From Thomasclavelia ramosa DSM 1402 (GTDB lineage Bacteria > Bacillota_I > Bacilli_A > Erysipelotrichales > Coprobacillaceae): DNA of 64,000 nt. Location of the stretch: NCBI RefSeq assembly GCF_014131695.1, contig NZ_CP036346.1, forward strand, positions 248,001 to 312,000, in the 5' to 3' direction. Below are positions 32,035 to 35,399 of the stretch, piece after piece. The notes beneath the pieces are model-generated. The model saw only the letters and a list, made by a program, of their open reading frames with translations. It searched no databases and had not been told where the DNA came from. The position numbers and the translations under genes were made by a program. How positions within the stretch are numbered: position 1 is the first letter of the stretch; each line of letters starts with the position of its first letter.

Positions 32035-32063
32035 TTGACAGTTAAGGGCAAACTTGGTAAAAT
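32035..32063 (+). promoter_or_regulatory. Near-consensus promoter for the MATE leader RNA
   Basis: A perfect TTGACA -35 (32035-32040), 17-bp spacer and TAAAAT -10 (32058-32063). Transcription should start near 32070, about 24 bases before the leader-peptide start codon. Confidence 0.85.
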
Positions 32064-32093
32064 CTTCTTGCTTACCGGAGGGTATAAGAAATT

Positions 32094-32144
32094 ATGCTGG
32101 ATAAGGTAGTGGGTCAAACCACTATTTTATCCAGCTTTTTTTAG
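32094..32144 (+). CDS. Leader peptide of the MATE pump gene (16 codons)
   Basis: A short frame encoding MLDKVVGQTTILSSFF, then TAG. It has its own ribosome site, GGAGGG at 32077-32082, 11 bases before the ATG, and a strong promoter just upstream. Its codons run exactly through both arms of the terminator hairpin, and its stop codon TAG is the first part of the MATE gene's own AGGAGG site. This is the layout of ribosome-mediated attenuation: a ribosome stalled early, for example by an antibiotic, would cover the 5' arm and block termination. It has not been matched to a known leader peptide. Confidence 0.65.
   Translation: MLDKVVGQTTILSSFF
32096..32142 (+). terminator. Attenuator terminator inside the leader-peptide frame
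   Basis: Outer stem GCTGGATAA/TTATCCAGC and inner stem TAGTGG/CCACTA, separated by a 2x2 internal loop, with a 6-base apical loop and seven T residues. The T run ends at the MATE ribosome site, so the default outcome is termination just before the pump gene. Confidence 0.85.
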
Positions 32145-32153
32145 GAGGAAAAT

Positions 32154-33485
32154 ATGAATGATGAATTATTAAATGGAAGTGTTTTTAAAAGTTTGATGCT
32201 CTTTGCAATTCCCTTCATGTTATCAAACTTATTACAAGTATTATACGGAGCTGCTGATTTATTTGTGGTGGGGCATTTCGCTACAACAAGTGATGTTTCA
32301 GCAGTTTCTATCGGTAGTCAAACAATGGCGATGCTAACTAACCTGATCCTTGGGTTTACAACAGGGATCACAGTATTATTAGGACAATTTTTTGGAGCTA
32401 AAAAGGAAAAAGAATTAGCTGCAACAGTGGGTTCTTCAGTTGTGTTGTTTACTATGATTGCTGTGACTATTTCAATTATATTATTTTTGACTAATCATCA
32501 GATTGTAGGATTAATGCATACACCTAACGATGCAATCAGTGCAACTAGAAGTTATTTATATATTTGTAGTTTAGGAACTGTTTTTATTGTAGGATATAAT
32601 GCAGTTAGTGCTATTTTAAGAGGTTTAGGTGATAGTAAGACACCTCTTTTATTTGTTGCAATTGCGTGTGTAATAAATGTTATTGTAGATTTTATTTTGG
32701 TAGATAGCTATCAAATGGGAGCAGTGGGAGCTGCTATTGCAACGGTATTAGCACAAGCAGGAGCTTTTATTTTTTCATTGATCTATCTAAAATATAAAGG
32801 ATTAGGTTTTAAGTTTAATCGCCAAGATATTAGTTTTAATCTTCCGATGATTGCGAAAATCACAAAAGTTGGGTTACCAATCGGCTTGCAAAGTGCTTTA
32901 GTTGGTATTTCTTTTTTGTTGATTACGGTAATCGTCAATGGTATGGGGTTAGTTGCTAGTGCTTCTGTTGGAGTTGTTGAAAAATTGATTGAATTTTTAA
33001 TGTTACCAGCAATTGCCTTAGGTAATGCTGTTGCAACGATGACAGCTCAAAATTTTGGGGCCGAGCAGTATTCACGAGCGTATAAATCAATGCGTTATGG
33101 GATTGCTTTTTGTCTTTCGATTTCATTGATTGTGACAGTTGTTTGTCAATTTGATGGAAGTATTTTCACACGAATTTTTTCTAGTGACCAGGCAGTAATT
33201 AAAAATGCGGCTTTATATTTACAAACATATTCTTTTGATTGTTTATGTACAAGTTTTATCTTTTGTTATAATGGTTATTTAAATGGTGGTGGATATACTG
33301 TTTTTACGATGCTTCATAGTTTGCTGGCAACCTTTATTTTAAGAATTCCATTAACTTTAGTAATTAGTAAATTGAGCGGAATTACTTTATTTCATATGGG
33401 GATTGCATCGCCTATTGCTTCTATGGCATCGATTATCATGTGTGTCATTTATATTCGTTATTTAAATAAGAAATTATTATTTTAA
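32154..33485 (+). CDS. MATE-family efflux transporter
   Basis: 443 residues with twelve predicted transmembrane helices in two halves. N-terminal MATE signature segments are seen (SLMLFAIPFMLSNLLQVLYG, then ADLFVVGHF and GFTTGITVLLGQFFGAKK), with the matching second-half AIALGNAVATMTAQNFGA. MATE proteins export cationic drugs and similar compounds using a sodium or proton gradient. The gene sits directly behind a promoter, leader peptide and terminator, which suggests induction by translation inhibitors or another signal that stalls ribosomes. Confidence 0.9.
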   Translation: MNDELLNGSVFKSLMLFAIPFMLSNLLQVLYGAADLFVVGHFATTSDVSAVSIGSQTMAMLTNLILGFTTGITVLLGQFFGAKKEKELAATVGSSVVLFTMIAVTISIILFLTNHQIVGLMHTPNDAISATRSYLYICSLGTVFIVGYNAVSAILRGLGDSKTPLLFVAIACVINVIVDFILVDSYQMGAVGAAIATVLAQAGAFIFSLIYLKYKGLGFKFNRQDISFNLPMIAKITKVGLPIGLQSALVGISFLLITVIVNGMGLVASASVGVVEKLIEFLMLPAIALGNAVATMTAQNFGAEQYSRAYKSMRYGIAFCLSISLIVTVVCQFDGSIFTRIFSSDQAVIKNAALYLQTYSFDCLCTSFIFCYNGYLNGGGYTVFTMLHSLLATFILRIPLTLVISKLSGITLFHMGIASPIASMASIIMCVIYIRYLNKKLLF

Positions 33486-33783: not shown

Positions 33784-34242
33784 TTAGATAGAATTAATTT
33801 CTTCATTTGAAATGACTTTTATATCAGCAGATTGATATATAATTAATCCAATAATGACGATAATACAACCAATCAATTTGTTAAGGGTGAAGACGTGATA
33901 GATATAATAGTCTAGTATCATTCCACTAAGTAATTGAGAGATAAAAGTAATTAGAGTTAGCTTGATTGGAGTAACTTTGGAAACGACGATGTTTAAAATT
34001 AGAACATTAAAGACACCAATTATTCCTCCAACTAACATTATTAGATCTATCTTTGTAAATGAAATGTTTTTGAATGCTGGTAACAGGGTAAAAAATAAGA
34101 GAATTGAACTAGTAAGCAAACCAGTAAAGTAATTAAAGAAAGTGCTTTGATAAGGACCGATTTTTTTTGCTAAATATCCATTTATGGAACGGCTTAAAAC
34201 AATAGTCATACCGCTAGCTATTGCACATATTATTGCAATCAT
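33784..34242 (-). CDS. YdcZ-type DMT-superfamily membrane protein (second of pair)
   Basis: 152 residues, almost wholly hydrophobic, with five predicted helices. It resembles the DMT/YdcZ (DUF606) family: an early SGMTIVLSRSINGYLAKKIG, then GPYQSTFFNYFTGL and a conserved TPIKLTLITFISQLLSGMI in the fourth helix. Half-size DMT proteins often work as heterodimers encoded by adjacent genes; here the partner gene overlaps by 4 bases. The substrate is unknown. Confidence 0.75.
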   Translation of the reverse strand: MIAIICAIASGMTIVLSRSINGYLAKKIGPYQSTFFNYFTGLLTSSILLFFTLLPAFKNISFTKIDLIMLVGGIIGVFNVLILNIVVSKVTPIKLTLITFISQLLSGMILDYYIYHVFTLNKLIGCIIVIIGLIIYQSADIKVISNEEINSI

Positions 34243-34658
34243 TTAACCATCACTCCAATTCCAATTGTGACAATTATTAAACTTAACCATTTAAGTGGTG
34301 TTAGTTTTCTTTTTAATGACCCTAGCCAGCCTTTAGATTCTAGGATGATAGAAATAATCATTTGACCCAGTAAGCCTAATGCTGTTAACAAAGCTGCACC
34401 GATATTATTGACAGCGATAATATTAAAAATTACAGTTAGTACACCAATTACTCCGCCGGTGTATAAAATAAAGGGTAAATGATGTTTAAAGGAAATTTCT
34501 TGCTTTTTTAAAAACATGATCAAGGTAAAAGTAATTAAACCAATCAAATGAATAATAACGGTTGCTAGATAAACACCACAGTGGGCAGATAGTTGACCAT
34601 TAAAAATATTCATGGTCGATACGATTAAACCACATAAAAAAGATAATAATAAATACAT
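34239..34658 (-). CDS. YdcZ-type DMT-superfamily membrane protein (first of pair)
   Basis: 139 residues with five predicted helices and the YdcZ/DUF606 look: STMNIFNGQLSAHCGVYLAT near the N-terminus and AALLTALGLLGQMIISIILE in the fourth helix. The start at 34658 (MYLLLSFLCG) has GGAGGTG six bases upstream, which rules out an upstream TTG. It is paired by overlap with the 33784 gene and divergent from a Crp/Fnr-type regulator, which likely controls it through the shared palindrome. Confidence 0.78.
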   Translation of the reverse strand: MYLLLSFLCGLIVSTMNIFNGQLSAHCGVYLATVIIHLIGLITFTLIMFLKKQEISFKHHLPFILYTGGVIGVLTVIFNIIAVNNIGAALLTALGLLGQMIISIILESKGWLGSLKRKLTPLKWLSLIIVTIGIGVMVK

Positions 34659-34700
34659 AGTTAACACCTCCAAATTTATTATAAAGAAAAGATATTGCTT

Positions 34701-34726
34701 TTAAATACGACATATGTCATATTTAA
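34701..34726. promoter_or_regulatory. 26-bp palindrome between the YdcZ pair and the Crp/Fnr gene
   Basis: TTAAATACGACAT and ATGTCATATTTAA form an inverted repeat with a single mismatched position, centred in the 81-base divergent region. Likely operator of the adjacent Crp/Fnr-type regulator. Confidence 0.65.
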
Positions 34727-34739
34727 GGTGGTGATATAT

Positions 34740-35399
34740 ATGAAAAATCGAGAGTATTATATCAATTTGCTTAAAGTTGAGCAGATGATGAGTGATGATA
34801 ATTATCAGTATCTTGAATTATGTGAGTTTTCTAAGGCTGAACATCTATTACATCAAGGGCAGATATTAGAATATTTATATATTCTTGTATCTGGAAGAAT
34901 TAAAAGCTGTCGAACGACTGCGAATGGAACAACAGTTTTATCAGCTTTTTCTAATCCAATCACAGTTACTGGAGAAGTTGAATTTCTAAATCATCATGAA
35001 GTCACTAATGATGTTTACGCACTCAAAAATACAGTTTGTTTTAGAATATCAGTGGCGCAATATGAAGATATTTTATTACATGATTTAATATTTATGCGTT
35101 ATTTAGCACGAACACTTTCAAATCGGCTATATCATGCTAATCATAATACTGCTATTTCAATTAATTATCCAGTTGAAAATCGTTTAGCTTCATATCTTAT
35201 TTCGAGTGCTCAACAATTGATCATTAAGGATAATTTTGTTCAAGTAGCAGAAATGATCGGGTGCAGTTATCGTCAGTTACAGCGAGTCTTAAATGACTTT
35301 TGTCAGTGTGGGTATCTTTGTAAGGTTAAACGAGGCAATTACTTGATTACGGATGAAAGTGCATTAAAAGCATTAGGTCAGGATTTGTATTATATATAA
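34740..35399 (+). CDS. Crp/Fnr-family transcription regulator
   Basis: About 219 residues. The N-terminal cyclic-nucleotide-binding-like beta roll (about 20-125) includes LLHQGQILEYLYILVSGRIK, and the C-terminal winged helix (about 145-215) includes VAEMIGCSYRQLQRVLNDF. No cysteine cluster of the Fnr type is seen, so an iron-sulfur sensor is unlikely. The start at 34740 follows AAGGTGGTGATAT. It is divergent from the YdcZ pair, and a long palindrome lies between them; it resembles YeiL-like members. Confidence 0.82.
   Translation: MKNREYYINLLKVEQMMSDDNYQYLELCEFSKAEHLLHQGQILEYLYILVSGRIKSCRTTANGTTVLSAFSNPITVTGEVEFLNHHEVTNDVYALKNTVCFRISVAQYEDILLHDLIFMRYLARTLSNRLYHANHNTAISINYPVENRLASYLISSAQQLIIKDNFVQVAEMIGCSYRQLQRVLNDFCQCGYLCKVKRGNYLITDESALKALGQDLYYI

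Follow-up and report, generated by a model that had tools for sequence, protein, structure and literature searches.

What determines whether a gene for a MATE family efflux transporter in Thomasclavelia ramosa DSM 1402 is transcribed past the terminator in its own leader? We analyzed this locus within a window of 64,000 nt (NZ_CP036346.1, positions 248,001-312,000, forward strand), "the window" denoting that whole stretch of DNA. An earlier note on it had proposed a leader peptide as the controlling element, and its individual claims are taken up below beside the results that bear on them.

The leader and the regulated gene

The features of the leader and of the gene behind it, in window coordinates, are as follows.

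32035..32063, + strand: sigma-70-type promoter of the form TTGACA-17-TAAAAT, its -10 preceded by TG; transcription predicted to begin at about 32070
32070..32076, + strand: X, the 5' strand of helix P1 (UUACC), the partner of X', placed where the transcript is predicted to begin
32077..32080, + strand: GGAG, conserved 5' side of the internal loop (columns 16-19 of alignment A4)
32081..32098, + strand: hairpin P2, GGUAUAA-GAAA-UUAUGCU, in its short form (RNAfold)
32094..32144, + strand: 16-codon frame MLDKVVGQTTILSSFF, the proposed leader peptide, judged not to be a gene (start, frame and length unconserved)
32096..32135, + strand: intrinsic terminator hairpin of 17 pairs with a 6-nt loop
32099..32104, + strand: GGAUAA, 3' side of the internal loop and part of the terminator 5' arm (conservation in A4)
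32105..32109, + strand: X' (GGUAG), 3' strand of P1 and part of the terminator 5' arm (pairing, covariation and fold)
32136..32142, + strand: seven-U tract of the terminator (T7 in the DNA), read from the sequence
32143-32148, + strand: AGGAGG of the pump gene, read from the sequence
32154..33485, + strand: MATE family efflux transporter of 443 aa, the regulated gene (TIGR00797, PF01554)

The product of 32154-33485 matched TIGR00797 (matE) at 207 bits against a cut-off of 147 and also matched Pfam MatE, in agreement with the earlier identification of the gene as a MATE pump. The near-consensus promoter that had been described (TTGACA, 17 bp, TAAAAT) was recovered with 11 of 12 consensus matches and was the best of the 8 sites in the region. 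The strong terminator hairpin followed by seven T was borne out as well: the leader RNA folded at -35.8 kcal/mol compared to -18.5 ± 3.2 kcal/mol for shuffled sequences (z = -5.3; 0 of 200 shuffles were as good). Furthermore, T7 reaches the AGGAGG of the pump and the leader stop codon overlaps that site, all as described before, and the proposal that premature termination takes part in the control of the MATE pump is supported.

In the window leader, the 5' arm of the terminator overlaps the 3' strand of P2, GGAUAA and X'. When folded with RNAfold, a truncated 51-nt transcript adopted P1, the internal loop and P2, and the full transcript adopted the terminator. The predicted aptamer fold and the terminator are mutually exclusive, with X' and GGAUAA common to both, an arrangement by which riboswitches are recognized. 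Beyond the pump gene, at 33784-34673 (- strand) and 34695-35399 (+ strand), the window holds a YdcZ-type DMT transporter gene pair and, adjoining it, a divergent Crp-like regulator resembling YeiL.

Conserved architecture of the leader RNA

Upstream of the nearest MATE relatives lies the core GGAGGGU...GCUGGAUAAG together with a terminator (L004, L005, L009). In this core, X lies just before CGGAGG and X' just after GGAUAA, and GCYGGAUAAG is also in the 5' arm of the terminator. X and X' read CAUC/GAUG, GC(U)C/GGC, AC(U)C/GGU, CCUC/GAGA and GUUC/GACC in different copies, and UACC/GGUA in the window. Across 120 relatives, X and X' formed 4.29 pairs on average compared to 2.97 ± 0.10 when the partners were permuted, a difference of 13 SD that 0 of 300 permutations reached, and P2 pairing was likewise above that of shuffles. 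In alignment A4, 90.5% of all cells were paired compared to 75.2 ± 0.8% after shuffling, and the covariation score was 0.470 (0.219 ± 0.011 in shuffled alignments, 0 of 500 reaching it, and at most 0.148 in slid controls); A4 was fitted to the structure of covariance model R1, so that its pair counts lean to that structure, and the X/X' permutation is independent of the fit. All six pairs of the long-form P2 covaried, with 95.5% of cells paired.

Both sides of the internal loop were nearly invariant in A4 (GGAG, 99-100% per column; GGAUAA, 99-100%), a conservation that is partly built in, since GGAGG and GCYGGAUAAG were fixed in the search patterns of many copies; R1 matches found without requiring either motif nevertheless retained both. 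The pair that closes P1 was present in the minimum-free-energy fold of 57 of the 120 truncated relatives, compared to 7.3 for shuffles. A promoter -10 element ended 9-17 nt before the C of the core in 88 of 120 relatives (2.25 expected) and 13 nt before it in the window, and this fixed distance places X at the 5' end of the RNA. The 5' leader thus holds a conserved, covarying, aptamer-like structure, as riboswitches do.

Two further sets of pairs were considered. A local hairpin X:Y (UUGC-NCGGAGG-GCAA) exceeded its permutation by 2.6 SD (3.48 vs 3.25 ± 0.09), compared to 13 SD for X:X', and was rejected as the conserved pairing; we retain it only as a possible hairpin of the OFF state. A third set, P2a (GGC/GCY), appeared in folds and is fixed by the search patterns, which makes its covariation uninformative. 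Most copies carry a longer P2 with UCAUUC..GAAAUGA, whereas P2 of the window is without the AUUC..GAAAU element. Similarly, a hairpin with the near-fixed loop UGARAU tops the terminator in most long forms (for example L104 and L117), and the short-form terminator loop of the window is without this hexamer. Judged from these sequences, the predicted ligand-binding behaviour of the short-form window copy could differ from that of the long forms.

Distribution, downstream genes and the proposed signal

The pattern GGAGGGTN{6,36}CTGGATAAG was present in 16 of 43 genomes of the family and its reversed control in 0, and those family matches that were read lie before MATE-like genes. Model R1, built from nine long-form leaders with the window left out, returned a single match (E = 6.5e-4) in the 3.25-Mb genome of the window, the window copy itself. 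Across the order it matched 50 of 295 genomes, and we regard five of these as false (L091-L093, L095 and L096, which are without a terminator or a MATE gene). Among 150 Lachnospiraceae genomes, 28 were matched by a second model, R2. With each species represented by one genome, a strict pattern search found the element on at least 120 contigs, a lower bound that leaves out sub-threshold homologues, where we estimate a chance expectation of about seven in the whole collection. Among the matches listed, carriers in Bacillota were Lachnospiraceae, Oscillospiraceae, Clostridium, Lactobacillales and Erysipelotrichaceae, the last with relatives of the window copy (L151, L173); those in Bacteroidales were Parabacteroides, Alistipes, Bacteroides and Paramuribaculum; and further carriers were Spirochaetota (Brachyspira, Treponema), Eggerthellaceae and Gastranaerophilales MAGs. 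The element therefore appears, as far as sequence matches can tell, to be widespread and to occur mainly in gut bacteria. A match in Nitrospirales (L160) was set aside as likely due to chance, and the viral contigs searched gave no match to the element.

A MATE gene came next in 68 of 80 pattern loci. Of the 25 Lachnospiraceae model matches that were parsed, 23 precede a MATE gene, and the two others lie at a contig end and before a ThrRS-like frame. The MATE proteins associated with the element belong to several subfamilies. Other downstream genes encoded ABC exporters (L146, L167), MFS transporters (L170, L187), a GNAT protein (L118), a B3/4 domain protein (L124) and nucleotidyltransferase-like proteins (L102, L154; no Pfam match, named by eye). 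This profile of downstream genes would be that expected of a sensor of toxic compounds. Tandem copies of the element were observed at L102 (3815-3873 and 5136-5194) and, as L255 and L269, in G587; in tandem arrangements the first copy precedes a nucleotidyltransferase-like gene (named by eye) and the next precedes a MATE gene.

What we computed was conservation, covariation, exclusive folds, promoter position and gene association; ligand binding is what we infer from them, and the leader probably belongs to a conserved class of structured RNAs, which we take to be, most likely, transcriptional ON-riboswitches. In such a switch, the first ~40-50 nt leaving the promoter would fold as P1 (X:X'), closing the GGAG/GGAUAA loop and topped by P2. 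A ligand bound in the internal loop would lock X' and GGAUAA and thereby block the 5' arm of the terminator, and the pump would be transcribed. When no ligand is present, the terminator would take X' and GCUGGAUAAG, X would be limited to a weak local hairpin, and transcription would stop at the U tract. The anatomy of the leader and the efflux genes behind it suggest this ON logic, in which the signal would be a small molecule, its binding would turn expression on, and the pump would export the ligand or a related compound.

An RNA-binding protein could play the part of the small molecule, stabilizing the P1/P2 form and so causing antitermination: many terminator-overlapping leaders are protein-controlled. 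We nevertheless consider a protein factor unlikely and favour a small molecule, because the element occurs in several phyla, beside unrelated transporters, and because no regulator gene recurs beside it among the adjacent genes of the loci that were read. Moreover, the internal loop is closed and carries near-invariant purines on each of its sides, and in this it resembles a binding pocket.

For the class as a whole, we lean towards a new riboswitch class of several phyla that would directly sense a xenobiotic or toxic small molecule common in the guts of animals and, by antitermination, switch on exporters of the MATE and sometimes of the ABC or MFS type. The single B3/4 (L124) and GNAT (L118) associations hint weakly at a ligand of guanidino type, and the molecule sensed is possibly a guanidino compound. 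To our knowledge, most MATE pumps have no known substrate. If the element is a riboswitch, its ligand, once found, would point to the natural substrate of several MATE subfamilies of gut bacteria; the element would also show how MATE pumps are induced and would be a widespread addition to the metabolite-sensing RNAs. With its consensus, covariation and exclusive folds, the element lends itself to direct tests in vitro.

Relation to known RNA classes and attenuators

We also considered whether the element belongs to, or is a close variant of, a class already described, with guanidine-IV (mepA motif) and its variant Gd4v as the main candidates; we hold this reading to be improbable. Guanidine-IV and Gd4v share gene type, length and terminator-based ON logic with the element, and guanidine-IV riboswitches also precede MATE genes (PMC7736828, PMC12186494). 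Gd4v, which has been described as almost identical in structure to guanidine-IV and as mostly found before transaminases, is enriched in the gut and carries a hairpin atop the terminator (PMC9788692), as the long forms do here, and the single B3/4 and GNAT genes after the element recall those found with guanidine riboswitches (PMC11477304, PMC9788692). However, the models of the two RNAs do not detect each other. Guanidine-IV-type leaders were recovered before SugE and aligned, and model R3 was built from eight SugE leaders. R3 found the held-out guanidine-IV leaders L223 and L235 at 77.6 and 57.5 bits, respectively, and matched none of the new element's leaders up to E = 5, the window copy (L047) included; R1, in turn, did not find guanidine-IV leaders. 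Guanidine-IV carries RCCGRG in loop 1 and AGGYC in loop 2, with loop-loop pairing (PMC7736828), and identity with it was rejected by the two-way model tests and the comparison of consensus sequences. In the order to which G592 belongs, 112 of 392 genomes had R3 matches, which show loops GCCGGG and AGGYC and precede SugE, another MATE subfamily and other genes; PnuC- and pyridoxamine-oxidase-like genes (named by eye) were also observed behind R3 matches in that order. A search of plasmids with E. coli SugE returned mainly enterobacterial SMR genes.

The downstream genes examined for the new element included neither SugE, the main guanidine-IV gene, nor a transaminase, the main Gd4v gene. The element is apparently an undescribed class of terminator-type riboswitch candidate, its comparison with Gd4v covering the published description of that motif. 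Rfam 15 gave no family at gathering score in the window or in the loci of 21 relatives, and nothing above sub-threshold noise at the window leader; it missed the guanidine-IV leaders L224 and L228 too, and its silence is therefore weak evidence of novelty. In the open-access literature that was searched, we found no MATE-linked orphan motif other than guanidine-IV and Gd4v, and it is possible that the element has already been published as a motif.

The leader-peptide attenuator of the earlier note, in which a ribosome stalled by a drug while translating the 16-codon frame would mask the terminator 5' arm and let polymerase read into the pump, fared poorly. Attenuators with short leader peptides regulate other resistance genes (bmrCD, erm-type), and the complete frame (ATG 32094-32096 to TAG 32142-32144) and the GGAGGG upstream of it (32077-32082) are both present in the window, as claimed. 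As the ribosome site of that frame, however, GGAGGG did not hold up: no start codon is kept with it, and it belongs to the conserved RNA motif. A start codon (ATG, GTG or TTG) occupied the position of the window ATG in 25 of 120 non-redundant relatives, AAG or GAG being commonest there, and starts 4-12 nt past GGAGG were not enriched (43 of 120 relatives, compared to 50.7 with the intervening sequence shuffled). In relatives with a start, frame length ranged from 1 to about 120 codons; L045 and L046 are without ATG at that place, and the frame of L037/L038 is five codons long. Core length across the 120 relatives was spread over the three frames (32, 40 and 48). An unconserved frame beside a conserved hairpin had been named beforehand as grounds for refuting the proposal, and in relatives the hairpin was conserved and the frame was not, which makes a stalled ribosome covering the 5' arm unlikely; compensatory base changes, furthermore, follow the RNA pairing. 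An aptamer that is stabilized by a ligand and takes up the 5' arm would fit the conserved parts. With neither start, frame nor length conserved in 120 relatives, we reject a translated leader peptide as the control of the pump and give it very little chance. It is about as hard to credit that the Shine-Dalgarno-like GGAGGG loop responds to translation status or to free 30S subunits and not to a metabolite: GGAGG is complementary to the 3' end of 16S rRNA and nearly invariant in the element, but no start codon is kept at Shine-Dalgarno distance, and P1, P2 and GGAUAA, needless for a decoy, are conserved too.

The preferred reading, a terminator-type riboswitch, can be set beside known systems. 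The bmrCD and erm-type attenuators resemble the element in having a terminator or hairpin ahead of a resistance gene, but need a translated, conserved leader frame, which the element does without. The ykkC/guanidine-I and yjdF (azaaromatic) riboswitches are alike in controlling detoxification or export genes and differ in that neither the window nor the loci of 21 relatives score at the gathering cut-off of any Rfam family. Guanidine-IV (GGAM-1 or mepA motif; PMC7736828, PMC11611296) is likewise a short RNA of 5' leaders, found with MATE and exporter genes in Bacillota, in which the sensor is overlapped by a terminator and turns expression on by competing with it. In contrast to guanidine-IV, which has a loop pseudoknot and mostly lies before SugE, the element is built of nested P1 and P2 with GGAGG and GCYGGAUAAG and, with no SugE among the downstream genes examined, lies mostly before other MATE subfamilies.
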